From contig NZ_JACHIV010000001.1 in the NCBI RefSeq assembly GCF_014203325.1, forward strand, positions 2,977,501-3,041,500: a stretch of DNA of 64,000 nucleotides, in the 5' to 3' direction. The notes below the pieces were generated by a model. It did not search any database. It saw only the letters and a program-made list of their open reading frames with translations, and had not been told where the DNA came from. This document shows positions 12,511 through 25,175 of the stretch, piece after piece; within the stretch, counting starts at the first letter, position 1, and every line of letters starts with the position of its first letter. The translations under genes and the position numbers were made by a program. Origin of the DNA: Saccharopolyspora gloriosae. Lineage in GTDB: Bacteria > Actinomycetota > Actinomycetes > Mycobacteriales > Pseudonocardiaceae.

Positions 12511-13701
12511 GTGGCCGGTGTGGTCGGCGGTGCTTCGGTGCCGATCCGGATGTGGGCGGATCCGGCGCGGGTGGAGACCGCGGCGATGGAGCAGCTGCGC
12601 AACATCGCGAACCTGCCGTGGGTGCACGGCCTGGCGGTGATGCCGGACGTGCACTTGGGCAAGGGCGCGACGGTGGGCAGCGTGATCGCGATGCGTGATG
12701 CGGTGTCGCCGGCGGCGGTGGGGGTCGACATCGGGTGCGGGATGAGCGCGGTGCGCACGTCGTTGCGGGCCGCGGACCTGCCGGATGACCTGGGGCGGTT
12801 GCGGCGGCGGATCGAGTCGGCGGTGCCGGTGGGGTTCTCGATGCACGACGAGCCGGTGGACGTGTCGCCGGTGGGCGGTGAGTCCGGGTGGGACGGGTTC
12901 TGGGGCCGGTTCGGCGAGCTGCACGAAGGGGTGCGCGACCGCCGGAGCAGGGCGTTGCGGCAGTTGGGCAGCCTCGGCGGTGGCAACCACTTCATCGAGG
13001 TGTGCTTGGAGCAGGGCGGCGCGGACGCGGGGCGGGTGTGGTTGATGCTGCACTCGGGGTCGCGCAACATCGGCAAGGAGCTGGCGCAGCGCCACATCGA
13101 GGTCGCGCGGTCGTTGCCGCACAACGCGGATCTGCCTGATCGGGACCTGGCCGTGTTCGTGGCGGGCACACCGCAGATGGAGTCCTACCGGCGGGACCTG
13201 TTCTGGGCGCAGGAGTACGCGCGGCGGAATCGGGCGGTGATGGTGTCGCTGGTGCAGCGGGCGCTGGCGGCCACGGTGCCCGGCACCCGGTTCGACGAGC
13301 CGATCTCCTGCCACCACAACTACGTCGCGCAGGAGTCCTACGACGGGGTGGAGCTGCTGGTGACGCGCAAGGGAGCGATCCGTGCCGGCAGCGGGGACCT
13401 GGGAATCATCCCGGGCAGCATGGGCACGGGTTCGTTCATCGTGCGGGGATTGGGGAACCCGGAGTCGTTCGCCTCGGCGTCACACGGTGCCGGCCGGGCG
13501 ATGTCGCGCACGAGGGCGCGCCGGGAGTTCACGGCGGCGGACCTGGTGGCGCAGACCGAGGGCGTGGAGTGCCGCAAGGACGCGGGCGTGGTGGACGAGA
13601 TTCCGGCCGCGTACAAGGACATCAACGAGGTCATGCGGGCGCAGACGGACCTCGTGGAGGTCGTCGCGCACCTCAAGCAGGTGGTGTGCGTGAAGGGCTA
13701 G
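12511..13701 (+). CDS. rtcB: RNA-splicing ligase RtcB
   Basis: A 396-aa GTP- and Mn-dependent RNA ligase that joins 2,3-cyclic-phosphate and 5-OH ends. All landmarks are present: MPDVHLGKG (about 44-52), GVDIGCGM (about 71-78, the metal-binding Asp and Cys), SLGGGNHFIEV, LHSGSRNIGK, SCHHNYV, the GDLGIIPGSMGTGSFIVRG loop, and SASHGAGRAMSR with the guanylylated His. Length fits the shorter actinobacterial form. GTG at 12511 is 5 bases after GGGGAGG; upstream codons lack family similarity. No RtcA or archease gene is adjacent. It is followed by hairpin repeat copy 1. Confidence 0.95.
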   Translation: MAGVVGGASVPIRMWADPARVETAAMEQLRNIANLPWVHGLAVMPDVHLGKGATVGSVIAMRDAVSPAAVGVDIGCGMSAVRTSLRAADLPDDLGRLRRRIESAVPVGFSMHDEPVDVSPVGGESGWDGFWGRFGELHEGVRDRRSRALRQLGSLGGGNHFIEVCLEQGGADAGRVWLMLHSGSRNIGKELAQRHIEVARSLPHNADLPDRDLAVFVAGTPQMESYRRDLFWAQEYARRNRAVMVSLVQRALAATVPGTRFDEPISCHHNYVAQESYDGVELLVTRKGAIRAGSGDLGIIPGSMGTGSFIVRGLGNPESFASASHGAGRAMSRTRARREFTAADLVAQTEGVECRKDAGVVDEIPAAYKDINEVMRAQTDLVEVVAHLKQVVCVKG

Positions 13702-13754
13702 CGGGGTGGTGTGCACCTGGCTTCGGTGTCGGCCTGCGCACGGGTCCGCTCAGC

Positions 13755-13955
13755 GGAACCTCAGGTGTCTTCTCGCTGCGGGATCTTTTTCCCGAGTGGC
13801 TCTCCGCCACGAGGGAAAAGCCGTCCTCGCGAGAAGACACCTGAGAACCCGCCGGTGGTCGGCCTGCTCAAGCCGGTCACTGCTCAGCGGCTTCGCCGCT
13901 GACAAGGAAAGGACGAGGAACGCCGCTCACGCGGAGGGGCAAGATCAAGGGCAGA
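13755..13955. repeat. hairpin repeat element, copy 1
   Basis: About 200 bases similar to 18022-18220. Outer stem: 17 bases at 13760-13776 pair perfectly with 13829-13845. Inside, TTTTTCCC and GGGAAAA plus GTGGC and GCCAC form a continuous inner stem. A second hairpin, TCAGCGGC-TTC-GCCGCTGA, is at 13884-13902, and the similarity ends at the CAAGATCA...GGGCAG block. The element lies between the convergent 3-prime ends of rtcB and the XRE gene. Compared with copy 2, stem bases change in compensating pairs (see findings). No protein-coding potential. Confidence 0.85.
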
Positions 13956-13976
13956 TCGGCCGATCGCTCCGGGGCT

Positions 13977-14234
13977 TCAGGCGGTGCGGGCTGCGGGGGT
14001 GGTTTCGGTGTGCAGCACGTCGAGGGAGAGGCCGACTTCGGCGGCGACGGCGGCGACGGTGAAGAACGCGGGGGTGGGGATGCGTCCGGTTTCGATCTTG
14101 CGGAGGGTTTCGGCGGAGATTCCGGCGCCGGTGGCGACGTCGATGATGCTGCGGTCGCCGCGTGCGGAGCGCAGGAGTCGGCCGAGGTTCTCACCGCGGG
14201 TTCGTTCGTCCGGGCTCAGCGGTACGCGCACCAT
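13977..14234 (-). CDS. XRE family transcriptional regulator, short
   Basis: An 85-aa protein that is little more than a helix-turn-helix: LGRLLRSARGDRSIIDVATG followed by AGISAETLRKIETGRIPTPA, then AAVAAEVGLSLDVLH. ATG at 14234 is preferred over 14246 because the latter crowds the operator-like repeat at 14258. It is 39 bases downstream of the CPBP gene on the same strand and is likely part of a TetR-CPBP-XRE unit, with possible extra transcription from its own promoter. Confidence 0.82.
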   Translation of the reverse strand: MVRVPLSPDERTRGENLGRLLRSARGDRSIIDVATGAGISAETLRKIETGRIPTPAFFTVAAVAAEVGLSLDVLHTETTPAARTA

Positions 14235-14257
14235 GCCCGGGATCATACGTCCGGTAC

Positions 14258-14275
14258 AACTATCCCGGTATAGTT
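14258..14275. promoter_or_regulatory. operator-like palindrome upstream of XRE gene
   Basis: AACTAT-N6-ATAGTT, 6-base arms. It is AT-rich against its surroundings, overlaps the TAA stop of the CPBP gene by two bases, and lies 23 bases upstream of the XRE start. Typical of an XRE autoregulatory site. Confidence 0.5.
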
Positions 14276-15092
14276 ATCGCATCCAGCGTGTCCGGCCGAA
14301 CCGGCCGGTGCCCTGGTGCGACAGCGCCGGGGTGCCTCGGCGCCACCCCGGCAGCGCCGTCGCGGCGGCGGCCACGACAAAGCCGGTCGACATCGTCGCC
14401 GCGACGATCGGCGAGCCGTACTCCGGCAGCACCGTGCTGGCGAGGTTGAGCGCCGCGTGCCCGAGCACGGCGGTGGGCACGCTGGCTGAGGCGGCGTCGT
14501 AGGTCCAGCACAGCAGCACGCGCAGCGCGATGGTGCCGACACCCCAGGCGGCGATCCAGGTCGCGCCCCTACCCGCCTGGATCAGCGGGATGACGTGCCA
14601 GCCCGCCCAGAACGCGCCGAGCAGCAGTGCGACCCGGAGACCGCCGCCCCGGCGCGAACGGGCGTAGGCATGTCCCGTCCAGCCCAGTTCCTCGCAGATC
14701 GCGGCGATGAGGAACAGCGCCACCAGCACGGGCAGCGCTCGCCACGGCACGGCGAGGTCGGCGAGGCGGCCACCGGCCGAGGTGTGCGCGGCGAGCATGA
14801 CCAGCGGGATCAGCAGGACGGCGAAGGCGTACCAGCCGAGATCGGCCCGGCGCGGACGCAACCGGGCCAGCAGCCGGCGCGCACCGCCGGGGTGTTCTCG
14901 TCGGGCGAGCAGCAGCGCGGCCAGGGCGGGGGTCACGAACATCGACGCGCTGGCCGGAAGCCCGAGGGGCAGGTCGCCGGGACTTCCGATGACGGCTCCC
15001 AGCGCCCAGTGCGGCAGTGACAGGAGCAGCACCAGACCGTAGAACGCGTTCGGTCCGCGGCGCTCCCGGCCGGTCCGGTCGTGCTCAGCCAT
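14274..15092 (-). CDS. CPBP family intramembrane metalloprotease
   Basis: A 272-aa polytopic protein with at least seven hydrophobic segments. The three CPBP (Abi/Rce1-type) motifs are present: AAICEELGWTGHAYAR with the catalytic EE pair, GAFWAGWHVIPLI with His, and LGHAALNLAST with the last metal ligand. Such proteins cleave within membranes or act as bacteriocin self-immunity factors in some Firmicutes; no bacteriocin is seen here. Its ATG lies inside the end of the TetR gene (8-base overlap), so it is translationally coupled to that regulator. Confidence 0.88.
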   Translation of the reverse strand: MAEHDRTGRERRGPNAFYGLVLLLSLPHWALGAVIGSPGDLPLGLPASASMFVTPALAALLLARREHPGGARRLLARLRPRRADLGWYAFAVLLIPLVMLAAHTSAGGRLADLAVPWRALPVLVALFLIAAICEELGWTGHAYARSRRGGGLRVALLLGAFWAGWHVIPLIQAGRGATWIAAWGVGTIALRVLLCWTYDAASASVPTAVLGHAALNLASTVLPEYGSPIVAATMSTGFVVAAAATALPGWRRGTPALSHQGTGRFGRTRWMR

Positions 15093-15660
15093 CGGCCGGG
15101 GCGTGGTCGGTGAAGTGAGCGCACACCATTTCGACGAGCGCGGTGACGTCGGCGTCGACCATGGGGGCTCCGGTCATGCCCATCCGGTGCAGCAGCGTGC
15201 CGACGACGACGTCGATGAGGAACAGGACCCGGTGCTCCGGCTCTCCCAGCGCGTCCTGCAGCGCCAGCCGGTAGGGGTCCTGCAGGCGGGTGGCGAGGAC
15301 TTCGCGCAGGGCGGGATCGCTGACGCCGTCGGTGAACACGCCCGCGAATGCCGCGCCCACCCCCGGTTCGTTGATCTTGGCTGCGATCCAGTGCACGGCG
15401 GCGGAGATGTCGCCGCGCCGGTCGTCGCCGGTCAGCGGCGCCGGGCCGAAGGCGTCGACGAGGCAGTCGACGATCAGTGCGCCCTTGGTCGGCCAGCGGC
15501 GGTAGATCGTGGTCTTCGCGATGCCCGCCGCCTGAGCGATGCGTTCGACGGTGGCGCGGGCGTAGCCGAGTTCGTGGACCGTGCGCAGGGTCGCGGTGCG
15601 CACGACGGGCTCGACCCCGTCGCGGGGACGGCCGGGCGGTTTCGCGGCGGTTCGCGGCAT
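15085..15660 (-). CDS. TetR/AcrR family transcriptional regulator
   Basis: A 191-aa regulator: VHELGYARATVERIAQAAGI followed by AKTTIYRRWPTKGALIVDCL is the N-terminal helix-turn-helix (about residues 27-65), and the C-terminal domain is of the TetR_C_16-like actinobacterial type. It leads the TetR-CPBP-XRE unit and probably controls it through the GTTTCG...CGAAAC repeat at 15677-15701, 17 bases upstream of its start. Confidence 0.87.
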   Translation of the reverse strand: MPRTAAKPPGRPRDGVEPVVRTATLRTVHELGYARATVERIAQAAGIAKTTIYRRWPTKGALIVDCLVDAFGPAPLTGDDRRGDISAAVHWIAAKINEPGVGAAFAGVFTDGVSDPALREVLATRLQDPYRLALQDALGEPEHRVLFLIDVVVGTLLHRMGMTGAPMVDADVTALVEMVCAHFTDHAPADG

Positions 15661-15676
15661 GGCCGCACCGTAGCGA

Positions 15677-15701
15677 GTTTCGATACTTCAGGTTGCGAAA
15701 C
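15677..15701. promoter_or_regulatory. candidate TetR operator
   Basis: GTTTCG at 15677-15682 and CGAAAC at 15696-15701 form an inverted repeat with 13-base spacing, immediately upstream of the TetR start at 15660 and between it and the stop of the upstream hydrolase gene at 15741. Confidence 0.4.
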
Positions 15702-15740
15702 CAGGCGTACCGGAACCCGTTCGGAGCATGGGCGACGCCG

Positions 15741-16589
15741 CTACCGCGCTCCGATGCGTTCGGCGGCGGGGGTGGTGAGGAACTCCAGCAGGTCGGTGTG
15801 GAACTCGTCGCGGTGCGCGCCCACCAGGCCGTGCGGCGCGCCCGAGTGCACTTTGAGCGTCGCGTCCGGGACCAGGTGCGCCGAGTGCATCGCGGCGGCA
15901 CCGATCGGCACGATCTGATCGTCGTCGCCGTGCACGATCAACGTCGGCACGTCGATGCGGCGCAGGTCCTCGGTGAAGTCGGTCTCGGAGAACGCCGCCA
16001 CGCAGTCCAACGCGGCCTTGAGCCCGGCCTGCATGCTCATCAGCCAGAACGCGTCGCGCAGCCCGTCGGAGACCGCCGCCCCTGCCCGGTTCGCGCCGTA
16101 GAACGGCGCGGAGAGGTCCCGGTAGAACTGGGAGCGGTCGGTGGCCACCCCGGCGCGAATCTCGTCGAACACCTCGATCGGCTGCCCGTCCGGGTTCGCG
16201 GAGGTGCGCAGCATCAGCGGGGGCACCGCGCTCAGCAGCACCGCCTTGGCGACCCGTCCCGTGCCGTGCCTGCCGAGGTAGCGGGTCACCTCGCCGCCAC
16301 CGGTGGAATGCCCCACCAGGATCGCGTCGCGCAGGTCCAGGGCGTCGAGCAGCGCGGCGAGGTCCTCGGCGTAGGTGTTCATGTCGTTGCCGCCCCAGGT
16401 CTGGGCGGAACGGCCGTGCCCCCGGCGGTCGTGGGCGATGCCGCGGAACCCGTGCGAGGCGACGAGCATCAGCTGCTCGTCCCACACGTCGGCGTGCAAC
16501 GGCCAGCCGTGGCTGAACACCACCGGCGTGCCCGCGCCCCAGTCCTTGTAGAAGATCTCGGTGCCATCGTGGGTGATCAACGTCGGCAT
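15741..16589 (-). CDS. alpha/beta hydrolase (non-heme chloroperoxidase / esterase type)
   Basis: A 282-aa alpha/beta-hydrolase. Oxyanion-hole [10 protein letters not shown] at about 28-37, nucleophile elbow [10 protein letters not shown] with S95, acid in [11 protein letters not shown], and His in SGAPHGLVG near the end form the triad. The [20 protein letters not shown] stretch is typical of cofactor-free haloperoxidases, which in practice are esterases or perhydrolases. ATG at 16589 has GGAAGGA 8 bases upstream. Independent of the TetR operon by an 80-base gap. Confidence 0.88.
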
Positions 16590-16815
16590 CGGTGCGTCCT
16601 TCCCGTCGCGGTGTCACCCCCAGGTTCCCGGGCGGGACCGGGCTCGGCCGGAGGCTTTCGCCCCCACCTGCCCCGCGGGTGATTACCGTGCGCGCCGTGG
16701 TGGGAGCACACGGTGTGAGGATCACCGCACGGGCCCGCTCCACCACGGTCCGGCGGGCGCGGGCAGACTCGACCGGTAGGGGCCGAGAAGGCCAGTGCCG
16801 ATCGCAAGGGGAACC

Positions 16816-17994
16816 GTGAACAAGCACATCGCCGTGGTCACCGCGCCGGGCCACGGCCACATCAATCCGACGCTGCCGCTGGTCGAAGAGCTGACGCGGC
16901 GCGGGCACCGGGTCAGCTACGCCACCGGCGAACGCATGCTCGGCACCGTCGAGCAGGCCGGTGCCCGCGGCGTCGAGCTGCCCATGTCGATGCCGACGGT
17001 CACCCCCGGCATGGAGATGACCGTCGAGACGATGGCCGGGATGCTCGAATACCTGCACGGCGAATGCCGCGCCGCGCTGCCGGTGCTGTTGGAGCACTTC
17101 GAGCAGGACCGGCCCGACGTGGTGTGCTTCGACATGCTCACCCCCGCCGGGCGGATGCTCGCCGACAAGCTCGGCGTTCCCCTCGTGTCGCTGATGCCCA
17201 GCTTCGCCTCGAACGAGGACATGTCCCTGCAGCAGCGGATGATGCCCGCGGGCTTCGACCCGCAGGACCCCGTGCTGGTGAAGGCCGCGGCCCTGTTCGA
17301 GGAGATCGCCGAGGACTTCGCGCTGCCCGGCGACCAGTTCCCGATGCGCCCGGTCGCGGGCGCGACCAGCGTCGTGTTCCTGCCGAAGGCCTTCCAGATC
17401 GGCGCGGAGACCTTCGACGACCGGTTCCACTTCATCGGCCCCTGCCTGGGCAGCCGCGCCGAGCAGGACTACACCCCCGCCGACGAGCGGGCGCCGCTGC
17501 TGTTCATCTCCCTGGGCACCGCGTTCAACAACCGCCCCGACCTCTACCGCACGTTCCTCGACGCGTTCGGCGACGGCGCATGGCAGGTGGCGATGGCCAT
17601 CGGCGGCAGCGTCGATGTCGCCGACCTCGGCGAGATCCCCGCGAACTTCGACGTGCGGGCAGGTTTCCCGCAGCCCGGCGTGCTGCGGCGCGCCTCGGCG
17701 TTCGTCACCCACAACGGCATGGGCTCCACCACGGAGGCCCTGGCCTACGGGGTGCCGATGGTCGGGGTGCCGCAGATGCTCGAACAGGCCGTCAACGCCG
17801 ACCACGTCGCAGCGCTCGGTCTCGGCCGCCGCCTGCCCGACGACGAGCTCACCGCGGACGGGGTGCGCGCCGCCGTCGACGCGGTCGCCGCCGACGAGCG
17901 GATCCGCGCGAACCTCGCCGCGATGCGCGCCGAAGTGGACGCCTCCGGAGGCGCGGCCGCTGGGGCCGACGCGATCGAAGGCGCCTGCCGCTGA
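16816..17994 (+). CDS. macrolide-family glycosyltransferase (GT1, MGT type)
   Basis: A 392-aa GT-B glycosyltransferase. N-terminus: KHIAVVTAPGHGHINPTLPL, with the catalytic His of the family. The C-terminal donor domain shows FISLGTAFNNRPDLYRTF, FVTHNGMGSTTEALAYGVPM and GVPQMLEQAVNADHV, the UDP-sugar-binding signature. The MGT subgroup (OleD, OleI, Mgt) inactivates macrolides by glucosylation, so this is a likely intrinsic resistance or detoxification gene; acceptor is inferred. GTG at 16816 after AAGGGG fits the family start; GTG at 16795 is possible. Its TGA is the first base of hairpin repeat copy 2. Confidence 0.88.
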   Translation: MNKHIAVVTAPGHGHINPTLPLVEELTRRGHRVSYATGERMLGTVEQAGARGVELPMSMPTVTPGMEMTVETMAGMLEYLHGECRAALPVLLEHFEQDRPDVVCFDMLTPAGRMLADKLGVPLVSLMPSFASNEDMSLQQRMMPAGFDPQDPVLVKAAALFEEIAEDFALPGDQFPMRPVAGATSVVFLPKAFQIGAETFDDRFHFIGPCLGSRAEQDYTPADERAPLLFISLGTAFNNRPDLYRTFLDAFGDGAWQVAMAIGGSVDVADLGEIPANFDVRAGFPQPGVLRRASAFVTHNGMGSTTEALAYGVPMVGVPQMLEQAVNADHVAALGLGRRLPDDELTADGVRAAVDAVAADERIRANLAAMRAEVDASGGAAAGADAIEGACR

Positions 17995-18227
17995 CTGCTT
18001 GTCTTTGATCTCGGCTTGCGTGGAACCTCAGCGGTTTCCTCGCTGCGGGATCTTTTTTCCAAGTGGCTCCGCCACGAGGAAAAAAGCCGTCCTCGCGAGG
18101 AACCCGCTGAGAACCCGCCGGTGGTCGGCTTGCTCAAGCCGGTCACTGCTCAGCGGCTTCGCCGCTGACAAGACAACGACAGCAAACGCCGCTCATCCGA
18201 GAAGCCAAGATCACGGGCAGGCAGTGA
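17992..18227. repeat. hairpin repeat element, copy 2, with imperfect terminal inverted repeats
   Basis: The 18022-18220 core matches copy 1 at 13755-13955. Outer stem 18027-18043 pairs with 18095-18111 (16 of 17); inner TTTTTTCC/GGAAAAAA and GTGGC/GCCAC continue it; TCAGCGGC-TTC-GCCGCTGA is at 18150-18168. In addition the ends, 17992-18017 and 18202-18227, are inverse to each other at 20 of 26 positions, or 23 of 26 counting G-U pairs. The left end starts on the stop codon of the glycosyltransferase gene; the right end lies before the convergent mtnD stop. Confidence 0.82.
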
Positions 18228-18304
18228 GCACGCGCCACCAGCCCCCGGACACGGCGACGCCCCGCACCGTCGGTCGGTGCAGGGCGTGCGGTGCCGGTCG
18301 CGGA

Positions 18305-18880
18305 TCAGCCGCGGGAGGCGATCAGCTCGTCGAAACCGGGGAAGCGCTCCGCGGTGTCGGTGTTGAGGAACTCGCCGATCCAGCCGTCGTCGTCGTGGAA
18401 GAAGCGGATCGACACGAAGTCGGGGCTGGTGCCCATGTCGAACCAGTGCGTGGTGTTCGCGGGCACGCTCAGCAGGTCGCCCGCCTCGCACAGCACCGCG
18501 TAAACCTTGCCGTCGAGGTGCAGGTAGAACACCCCGGCGCCGCGGGCGAAGAACCGGTCCTCGTCGTCGTCGTGGGTGTGCTCGGACAGGAACTTCTCCC
18601 GCGCGGCCTTCGCCTTCGCCGGCCACTCCGGGTCGTCGGACGGGCTCATCGCGATCGCGTCGACCTTGATGTAGCCCTCGCTGTCGATGACCCGGTCCAC
18701 CTCCGCCCGGTAGGCGTCGAGGACCTGGTCGGAGGTCGGCTCCGCGGGCAGGTCCCGCAGTTCCCAGCGTTCGAAGCGCACCCCGAACTCCTTGAGGACG
18801 TCGCCGATCTCGGCGGGGTCCTCGGTGCGCACCGTGGCGGTGGCGGGATCGGTGTCGTCCCACACGGTCAGCAGCGTCAT
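18305..18880 (-). CDS. mtnD: acireductone dioxygenase
   Basis: A 191-aa cupin metalloenzyme of the methionine salvage pathway that cleaves acireductone to the keto-acid precursor of methionine and formate (Fe form). The metal-binding block SEHTHDDDEDRFFARG supplies two His and a Glu, and ANTTHWFDMG supplies the last His. Length fits. ATG at 18880 lies 13 bases after the mtnB stop. Last gene of the mtnA-C-B-D operon. Confidence 0.95.
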   Translation of the reverse strand: MTLLTVWDDTDPATATVRTEDPAEIGDVLKEFGVRFERWELRDLPAEPTSDQVLDAYRAEVDRVIDSEGYIKVDAIAMSPSDDPEWPAKAKAAREKFLSEHTHDDDEDRFFARGAGVFYLHLDGKVYAVLCEAGDLLSVPANTTHWFDMGTSPDFVSIRFFHDDDGWIGEFLNTDTAERFPGFDELIASRG

Positions 18881-23384: not shown

Positions 23385-25175
23385 CTAGCGGGGAGGCGGC
23401 CACGTGCCGCACGGCCAGGTGCCGTCCCAGCCGCTGTTGCCGGCGCCGAGGCGAACGTCGAACGCGCCCGCCTCCGGGCAGTTGTACACACCGGCCGCGC
23501 CCACCGACTCCGCGACGACGTCGCGCAACTCCGCCGAACCCGCCGTCTCGGCCTGCACGACCACGGTTCCCACTCCGCGCAGCTGCGCGCCGTCCACGGT
23601 GACGCCGCGGACCTCGTGGCCCTGTCCGCCGCCGGAGACGAACTCGAACACCCCGTACGGGCTGTCGACGGCCGTGGTGGCGGTGATCCGCACGTCGGCG
23701 TCGATCGGCGAGTCGAACGCGTCCACCCGCAACGCCCCCATCGGGTGCTGCCAGTTCGGGTTCATCGCACCCGTGCGCACCAGCTCGTTGCCCTCGACGG
23801 TGATCGTGCCCCGCAGCGGGAAGAACGGTTCCCCGAACGCCTGGTTCGAGATCGCGATCCCGCTGCCCAGCGCGTTGGTGTCGGCCACCAGGTTCTCGCG
23901 CACCACGAGGTCGGTGCCGCCGTAGAGCGCGATGCCGTTGGCCAGGTTCGGCGCCACCACCGTGTTCCCGGTGAACTCGCTGCCGCTGTTGGGCGCGTTG
24001 AGCGACCACATCGCCAGCGCGTCGTCACCGGTGTTGCGCAGGAAGTTGCCGCGCACCCGCACCCGGTTCGCCGACCCGTTGAGGTTGAGCCCGTCGGCGG
24101 TGGTGTCCAGGATCCGGTTGCCCTCGACCAGCAGGTCGTCGTTGACGCCGGTCAGCCACAACCCGACCTTCAAGTGCTGCAACCACAACCCGCTGACCTC
24201 CGACCCGGCGCCGAGGCTGCCGGTGACGAAGTTGTCCGGCGCGTCGTCGACGCGGTCGGTGACCTCGCCGATCACCGCGAAGTCCCGCAGCCGGACGCCG
24301 CCGACCGCCTCGGTCTGGTCGATCAGGTGCGAGCTCAGCAGCACCGACCGCCACGGCCCGGCACCGGTGATCGCGACCTGGTCCACCGGCAGCGGCGAGT
24401 CGACGCGGAACCGGCCCTCCGGCACCCACACCTCGCCGCCCGCGGCCTTGGCCTGCTCGATGGCGGCGGTGAACGCCTGCGCCGAATCCGCGGCACCCGT
24501 GGGATCGGCGCCGGCGTCGAGCACCGACACCGCGCCCTCCGGTGCCGGCGGGGCGGGCGCGACCTGCTCGAAGTCGGCGACGTCGACGGTGTACGACGAC
24601 ACCGACTCCGGTTCCAGCCGCACCACGTCCCCGGCGTGCACGTCCCGGCCCAGCAGCAGCCTCGCGTGGTCGAACAGGTGGTGGGTCTCGGAGCCGACGA
24701 TGCCGGGGGTGTCGAGGTAGGAGTACTCGCTGGTGACCTCCAGCGCGTGCTCCAGCCGCTGCCCGTTGACCGACACCGCCACCGAACCGCTCGTCCCGTC
24801 GGGCACGTTGCCCGACACCGTGACCGCGTTCGCGTCCGCGCCGACGGTGAACTCCACGTATTGACCGGGCCCGTGCAAGGTCACCGCGCGCCGCCCCGAC
24901 GCCTCCGAGGCGAGGCTGCCCTGGGTGAGGTCGGGGCCGATCGCGGTGCCGTTGGTGGCGGCGTCCTCGGCCTCCATCGACACGAACGGCGTCTGCGCGC
25001 CCGCGCGCGGCGCCGCCGCGGCCGGGGTGGTCGGCGCCGGTCGCGGCGCGGCGGACGGTTTCGCGGGAACGGTGAACGCGACGGTGCCGGCGACGACGAT
25101 CGTCGCCGCGGCCACCGCGGTGCAGCGGCACCACAACGGATCGCGAGCGGGGGAGGGCAAGTCGGGGCTTCGCAC
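23385..25175 (-). CDS. secreted CBM35-type / right-handed beta-helix protein (GH87-like)
   Basis: 596 aa. A short cytoplasmic lead is followed by a signal-anchor or signal peptide (about 19-38) and a Pro/Ala linker. A carbohydrate-binding module begins VSMEAEDAATNGTAIG and includes GPGQYVEFTVGADANAVTV. After LDAGADPTGAADSAQAF, a typical start of pectate-lyase-like folds, the rest is a parallel beta-helix with repeated N-x-I/V turns such as VEGNRILDTTADGLNLNGSA and NTGDDALAMWS. The order matches bacterial alpha-1,3-glucanase/mycodextranase-like proteins. An extracellular glycan-active enzyme is likely; the substrate is not shown. GTG at 25175 has AAGGA 6 bases upstream. Two C-terminal Cys may form a disulfide. 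Confidence 0.82.
   Translation of the reverse strand: MRSPDLPSPARDPLWCRCTAVAAATIVVAGTVAFTVPAKPSAAPRPAPTTPAAAAPRAGAQTPFVSMEAEDAATNGTAIGPDLTQGSLASEASGRRAVTLHGPGQYVEFTVGADANAVTVSGNVPDGTSGSVAVSVNGQRLEHALEVTSEYSYLDTPGIVGSETHHLFDHARLLLGRDVHAGDVVRLEPESVSSYTVDVADFEQVAPAPPAPEGAVSVLDAGADPTGAADSAQAFTAAIEQAKAAGGEVWVPEGRFRVDSPLPVDQVAITGAGPWRSVLLSSHLIDQTEAVGGVRLRDFAVIGEVTDRVDDAPDNFVTGSLGAGSEVSGLWLQHLKVGLWLTGVNDDLLVEGNRILDTTADGLNLNGSANRVRVRGNFLRNTGDDALAMWSLNAPNSGSEFTGNTVVAPNLANGIALYGGTDLVVRENLVADTNALGSGIAISNQAFGEPFFPLRGTITVEGNELVRTGAMNPNWQHPMGALRVDAFDSPIDADVRITATTAVDSPYGVFEFVSGGGQGHEVRGVTVDGAQLRGVGTVVVQAETAGSAELRDVVAESVGAAGVYNCPEAGAFDVRLGAGNSGWDGTWPCGTWPPPR

Follow-up and report, generated by a model that had tools for sequence, protein, structure and literature searches.

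What keeps the two arms of a hairpin complementary while their sequence changes is the question raised by a pair of repeats in Saccharopolyspora gloriosae. The stretch of DNA analysed here (contig NZ_JACHIV010000001.1, positions 2,977,501 to 3,041,500, 64 kb; hereafter the window) carries two copies of an element with a palindromic core, for which a preliminary description had proposed an RNA element, a bidirectional terminator family, or a repetitive extragenic palindromic (REP)- or miniature inverted-repeat transposable element (MITE)-like element. Our data favour the last of these: with a probability of roughly 0.55, the copies belong to a short, non-coding, non-autonomous REP/MITE-like mobile family that is moved as folded DNA by an enzyme acting in trans. 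The support comes from insertions without counterpart in a close relative, from 3-bp duplications and from the large number of copies.

The two copies were compared with the relative G001, which shares 92-95% identity with S. gloriosae across the blocks compared. Their parts are listed here with positions in the window; positions given below as chromosomal refer to the S. gloriosae chromosome of 6,825,909 bp.

13712 to 13946, + strand: copy 1, DNA without counterpart in G001 (boundaries about +/-20 bp)
13753 to 13852, + strand: core hairpin of copy 1 (expectation value, E, 5.3e-23)
13753 to 13852, + strand: layout of this core, namely GCGG, AAC loop, 17-bp stem, 8x8 internal loop and inner stem
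13884 to 13902, + strand: second hairpin of copy 1, TCAGCGGC-TTC-GCCGCTGA
17992 to 17994, + strand: TGA stop codon of the gene upstream of copy 2, which is the left copy of the 3-bp duplication
17995 to 18224, + strand: copy 2, the entire inserted element of 230 bp, its site being empty in G001
17995 to 18017, + strand: left terminal inverted repeat of copy 2
18020 to 18118, + strand: core hairpin of copy 2, 16/17 paired (E 3.5e-25)
18150 to 18168, + strand: second hairpin of copy 2, same sequence as in copy 1
18202 to 18224, - strand: right terminal inverted repeat of copy 2, 18/23 like the left one
18225 to 18227, + strand: TGA, right copy of the 3-bp duplication at copy 2

The preliminary description had rightly recognised two copies of one element here, and its account of the stems agrees with our reading of the window sequence: the outer stem pairs at 17/17 positions in copy 1 and 16/17 in copy 2, four outer pairs are changed on both sides (G-C/C-G, T-A/G-C, C-G/T-A and T-A/C-G), one inner pair changes from C-G to T-A, and the second hairpin has the same sequence in either copy. 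The variable parts of the stem are GTGTCTT/AAGACAC in copy 1 and CGGTTTC/GAACCCG in copy 2. The boundaries of copy 1 are imprecise because two alignment blocks of G001 share 19 bp, while at copy 2 the comparison sets the insertion at 17995-18224 with TGA on either side. Terminal repeats are indeed present in copy 2, but the 26-bp ends originally described (20/26) are refined to 23-bp ends matching at 18/23 positions. Both copies lie between convergent gene ends, as had been stated; the called gene before copy 1 ends at 13701 and the next gene has its 3' end at 13977, the corresponding positions for copy 2 being 17994 and 18305. Folded as single-stranded DNA (+ strand), the two copies give z values of -7.26 and -5.69, and 0/200 shuffles were as good.

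The window copies are members of one family with several hundred copies in the chromosome. The 15-base core piece GCTGCGGGATCTTTT, at up to 2 mismatches, has 343 chromosomal matches (182 on the + strand, 161 on the - strand), as against 9 (2 and 7) for the reversed pattern, so that the genome search suggested in the preliminary description did find further copies. When the best 40 of 468 candidates found with copy 1 as query were scored, they gave 48 rows, 40 of them at 82-100% identity; the others were 7 reverse readings of palindromes listed already and 1 short piece adjoining a listed copy. Cores were drawn from the window, from 100 stretches of 20 kb at even spacing and from other loci retrieved. 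An initial core filter (215 rows) included false anchors, and requiring at most 5 mismatches in each arm at fixed positions left 149 cores, 141 from S. gloriosae and 8 from G001. This filter also removes decayed copies, and 60 loci had been chosen because they matched best or exactly; the degree of pairing among old copies is therefore possibly overstated. The core, 99 nt long, forms an imperfect palindrome whose stem is variable but complementary and whose internal loops are almost fixed; its parts follow in the order GCGG, AAC loop, CTCAG-NNNNNNN-CTCGC, 8x8 loop (TGCGGGAT / CTGTCCTC), inner stem with a small hairpin, and then back. The elements are short (234-289 bp, judged by the gaps at the short insertions) and non-coding, 1/106 cores overlapping a called gene.

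That the stem changes compensate in further copies, as the comparison of two copies had predicted, is borne out by the whole sample. Across the 7 variable positions 117/149 cores are fully Watson-Crick paired, while random re-pairing of these positions gives a mean of 10.2 and a maximum of 22 fully paired cores (1000 trials). The fully paired 7-mers are of 26 distinct kinds, and a spanning tree connecting them needs at least 31 paired changes. An alignment of 57 cores from four genomes (A1) combined 46 of the 149, with distinct stems and a 55-nt middle part (42 from S. gloriosae, 4 from G001), with 11 of the 17 usable cores from two further relatives (G017 and G018). Here 18/35 pairs have changes on both sides, which 0/500 shuffles reach, and the double-change cells number 169 compared with 48.6 +/- 5.8 after shuffling (0/500) and with at most 65 when the partner is slid by 1-3 columns. 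The inner stem covaries as well (CTTTTT/AAAAAG, CGATTT/AAATCG, CCCGTT/AACGGG, CCTCGA/TCGAGG). Among 20 further cores, of which 3 came from the same genus and 17 from six others, the outer and inner stems are fully paired in 13 and have one A-C mismatch each in the remaining 7. Between genera the double changes extend to the flanks of the variable stem, from CTCAG/CTGAG to CTCAC/GTGAG and from CTCGC/GCGAG to CTGGC/GCCAG.

The loops behave differently. The AAC/AAC loop beside the stem is kept with GCGGAACCTCAG in the left arm of 132/149 cores and CTGAGAACCCGC in the right arm of 137/149, and the loops are unchanged in the 20 further cores. The preliminary conclusion that structure and not sequence is selected therefore stands as far as pairing is maintained, but not for the internal loops, whose sequence is near-invariant across genera.

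Near-fixed loops beside covarying stems, seen in the 8 genera read, together with a location in probable 3' untranslated regions, are also what would be expected of a conserved structured non-coding RNA, made from one strand and bound by a protein. The pairing data give this reading no support, since G-T is no commoner than A-C: the counts are 10 and 12 in the variable stem of the 149 cores and 26 and 25 over all helices of the 57 aligned cores. The absence of a G-U excess on the + strand, which is transcribed together with the upstream gene, speaks against selection of a + strand RNA, and the absence of a G-T excess over A-C is expected if DNA pairing is what matters. For the bottom strand the outer-stem cells lean the other way, with A-C 22 to G-T 15 in the 149 cores (p 0.32) and 18 to 8 among 40 additional cores, of which one is misaligned, while the inner stem has no lean (5 to 1 in the 46 distinct cores, 5 to 8 in the 40 others). 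A C.A mismatch also returns at one outer-stem position in five further genera. As top-strand A-C is G-U on the bottom strand, this would weakly suit a bottom strand that acts either as RNA or as folded DNA. The window has no Rfam match at the gathering score among 4227 families and at E<=1 only two microRNA chance hits, and hundreds of copies at unstable sites fit poorly with such an RNA. We consider it decidedly unlikely.

Pairing could also be kept without selection if template switching at the palindrome copied mutations from one arm to the other, a form of arm-to-arm DNA correction for which the lack of a G-U preference is likewise suitable. Possible traces of such copying are found: GGGTTC occurs in 6/149 left arms, in 5 of which the left arm is the complement of the right arm, and the sixth has GGTTCC in its right arm, i.e. 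the core is inverted relative to the arms. Arm-to-arm copying may thus occur now and then (5/149 left arms and one inverted-core copy). As the general cause of pairing it is very doubtful, because it would erase the asymmetric AAC/AAC loop, which lies 5 bp outside the variable stem and is kept in most copies and genera, and the C16.A84 mismatch is seen again in five other genera, with changes at the positions beside it. At chromosomal position 3409769 (- strand; L110) lies a copy in which the core is turned round between the outer arms, GCGGGTTCTCAG...CTGAGGTTCCGC.

The elements move, as insertion sites differ between close relatives. The comparison with G001 covers 328 kb and 21 S. gloriosae cores, of which 11, both window copies among them, are short insertions without counterpart in G001. 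Six others lie in larger gaps, three sites hold element DNA in both genomes, and at one G001 keeps the outer arms with the core missing. At both sites resolved to the base a 3-bp duplication is present, TGA at copy 2 and TCA at chromosomal position 3,839,089. One site shared with G001 has different stems in the two genomes, each pairing at 6/7 variable positions, which suggests conversion by another copy. Two further relatives provide observations at the window copies: at the place of copy 2, G003 has a hairpin that is shorter, resembles the element in its outer arms, carries the loop CTCGCGAG and lacks the inner part (L248), and at the place of copy 1, G002 has a decayed coreless element in opposite orientation (L247), which hints at repeated use of the site. 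Called proteins look ordinary in 7/8 of the larger gaps viewed between S. gloriosae and G001, no domain search having been run on them.

Placement relative to genes was assessed with a gene caller written for this analysis (1862 genes on 2.248 Mb). Of 106 cores, 54 lie in convergent gaps, 44 in tandem gaps and none in a divergent one; another 7 are at edges, and 1 overlies a gene. Convergent gaps hold 54/98 cores while making up 13.2% of intergenic bases, and divergent gaps 0/98, compared with 31.9% expected for random intergenic insertion. The expectation that copies sit mainly between convergent genes is therefore met by these 54, but 44/98 lie in tandem gaps, where 30 are in sense and 14 not (p 0.023). 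The left end is tightly positioned relative to gene ends and the right end is not: 71/99 cores start at most 52 bp from a facing stop codon, while 3.7% of randomly placed left ends would be expected to lie within 20 bp, assuming a left end of about 30 bp. Targeting of TGA stops was considered and rejected, since the element-adjacent stops (TGA 62, TAG 12, TAA 1) are not richer in TGA than a genome sample (1603, 154, 35). By eye, some called stops appear inside the left end of the element (distances -1 to about 26), so that a neighbouring gene may owe its stop to the element. A replication-strand bias was likewise rejected: the run of almost only + copies up to 3.0 Mb arose from the initial list of matches alone, and in the even sample both strands are represented, at 25 + to 12 - copies for one half and 25 + to 26 - for the other. 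The guanine-cytosine skew of the chromosome flips sign at about 3.0 Mb and 6.7 Mb, the window lying near one of these switch points.

This position would suit a portable transcription terminator, or a cassette for the 3' end of messenger RNA. Its hairpins would end or protect transcripts, often those of two convergent genes, with host-level selection keeping both the pairing and the place behind stops; the 71/99 cores near a facing stop, the 54 convergent and 0 divergent cores and the sense excess in tandem gaps all agree with it. Small hairpins with a T run are also more frequent at 13600-18400 of the window (4, three of them within the cores and one in copy 2, in its right part) than in shuffles (1.2, sd 1.1), and at chromosomal position 3797836 G001 carries, by eye, a hairpin in the place of the element. 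A terminator role is compatible with the position, but not with how the T and A runs are arranged. Thymines occupy the 5' side of the inner stem and adenines its 3' side, an order that is wrong for a U-tract behind the stem on either strand, and the T run is not kept across genera (CGATTT, CCCGTT, CCTCGA). A native-looking hairpin is still present 3' of the element at window copy 2 (by eye), the pairing data have no G-U excess, and the element was found in 15/46 sampled genera only. SPRITE and uptake-sequence repeats are repeated hairpins of which some have been proposed as terminators, according to the portions of PMC10969869 and PMC2267715 consulted; unlike in the terminator repeats described there, the order of stem and then T run is not kept across genera in the present family. 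We regard a terminator as the principal function as unlikely, although it is the strongest of the rival readings.

In the mobile-element reading, an enzyme supplied in trans would recognise the element DNA folded as a hairpin. The fixed internal loops may be its contact points, with the stem needed merely as a helix, and copies with an unpaired stem would stop moving, so that selection at the level of the element would keep the arms complementary. Insertion behind a stop codon would cause little harm, and left ends, cores and right ends would be reshuffled by recombination between copies.

Several observations weigh against this reading. The folded-DNA step itself is one that we infer. No REP transposase domain (Y1_Tnp, PF01797) was found in S. 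gloriosae, G001, G002 or G003, and the REP-associated tyrosine transposase gene that the preliminary description recommended looking for was thus not found in the genome of S. gloriosae; in a hand-picked set, Y1_Tnp is present in 11/28 element-bearing and 2/19 no-hit genomes (Fisher p 0.046, not corrected for kinship). DDE_Tnp_4 is likewise absent from the genome of S. gloriosae, and DDE_Tnp_1 was rejected as a parent, as none of its five loci there has element ends. A search for a parental transposon, with one end type in the S. gloriosae genome, gave no inverted end pair 1-3 kb apart among 100 of 101 places. Nine of the short insertions relative to G001 are not resolved to the base (the blocks at copy 1 overlap, and the rest have 5-92 unaligned G001 bases), and among copies whose ends pair but which have no matching empty site one is flanked, by eye, by an 8-bp repeat and one by no clear repeat. 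Left ends of a recognised type were found in 19/148 (11 L1, 8 L2). Lastly, the nearest neighbours among 104 sampled S. gloriosae elements are 87% alike at the median and 95% at most; this median is below the expectation for young copies and contrasts with sites that are empty in a relative 92-95% identical, although the elements were sampled from about 1/3 of the genome and closer sources are possible.

In a bolder reading the family would be a new class of DNA-hairpin mobile element: an unknown, non-Y1 recombinase would read the 99-nt folded strand by its loops and insert it in sense behind stops, and the process would rewrite both arms together, the copies thereby out-diversifying the host DNA while staying paired. 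The host identity of 92-95% weakens the part in which copies change faster than the host, and we hold this to be the least probable of the readings considered.

The family is widespread among relatives, but within limits. The GCTGCGGGATCTTTT pattern counts for S. gloriosae and five congeners are 343, 151, 245, 116, 38 and 36 (controls 3-9), and of 74 other relatives only G017 (49, control 10) and G018 (67, control 4) are clearly above control. A covariance model, as the preliminary description had advised, found the core across genera of the bacterial family, in at least 77/297 genomes and at least 15/46 genera; the scan took the best 13 candidates per genome with strict filters, so that the count for each genome is a minimum and weak cases may escape. 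In a class-wide sample of 394 genomes (best 10 candidates each) two were positive, both from the same bacterial family. Plasmid and phage records gave no match to 13700-13980 of the window, viral contigs no exact match of two core patterns, and a literature search nothing recognised as this hairpin family, which is no proof that it is unpublished.

It is useful to compare the family with known systems. REP elements, which are associated with TnpA-REP/RAYT, e.g. in E. coli, have a GTAG-type tetranucleotide, conserved stem mismatches and a length of 20-50 nt, as stated in the sections of PMC8266576 consulted. Measured against that account, the present elements are similarly hundreds of intergenic imperfect palindromes with a kept mismatch, here the AAC/AAC loop, and GTGG or GTAG, a possible counterpart of the REP tetranucleotide, directly precedes the palindrome in 74/106 S. 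gloriosae cores (GTGG 53, GTAG 21, TCAG 20, others 12), while the 99-nt core is at least about double the maximum REP length. The second hairpin, the terminal repeats, the tight sense placement behind stops and the absence of a Y1_Tnp gene from the S. gloriosae genome also set them apart from REP elements.

MITEs are limited to a size below about 600 bp. Like MITEs, the elements are present or absent at the same place in relatives (11/21 cores relative to G001); unlike them, they have a hypervariable but paired stem with fixed internal loops and several end types per core, and a parental transposase was not found in the searches above. Further likenesses to ERIC, Correia, RUP and BOX, as far as these are treated in the parts of PMC10969869 consulted, are that the elements are short, non-coding, intergenic and strongly folding, with terminal repeats where these are recognisable and, at the two sites resolved to the base, a 3-bp duplication.

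Integron attC sites have variable self-complementary arms, are recognised as one folded DNA strand and are located behind a gene; their end boxes are RYYYAAC and GTTRRRY. The variable but self-complementary arms and the place behind a gene are shared with the present elements. However, the element ends GCGGAAC and GAACCCGC (by eye in alignment A1) misfit these boxes, and the copies are dispersed among syntenic genes with no cassette array.

Hundreds of copies in one genome, together with relatives in many genera, amount to a natural experiment in which the stem is free to vary but must pair, while the loops are near-constant. With such a family it can be tested whether folded DNA or RNA is the selected form, which enzyme mobilises it and why it lands behind stops. 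Gene annotation is affected too, because, by eye, some called stops adjoin the left end of the element or fall within it.

Around the core the elements are of mixed construction. The right part is mainly of two types: the first has the hairpin TCAGCGGCTTCGCCGCTGA (63/106), the second GACGTGGGCTAT together with short hairpins in arrays (35/106), and the several types of left end are combined variously with them. Clear terminal inverted repeats are present in copy 2 and in the copies with paired ends. Core-less versions of 112-117 bp with paired ends, at chromosomal positions 24857, 125273, 1753608 and 3429728 (L338-L341), may be older forms or deletions. The second element type continues into long arrays with many repeats of short hairpins such as GGCACGGCTTCGCCGC (among others at 15448 and 6052298, both on the - strand; L061, L149), and a long G run lies close behind the element, on its right side, near chromosomal position 6698190 (L004).

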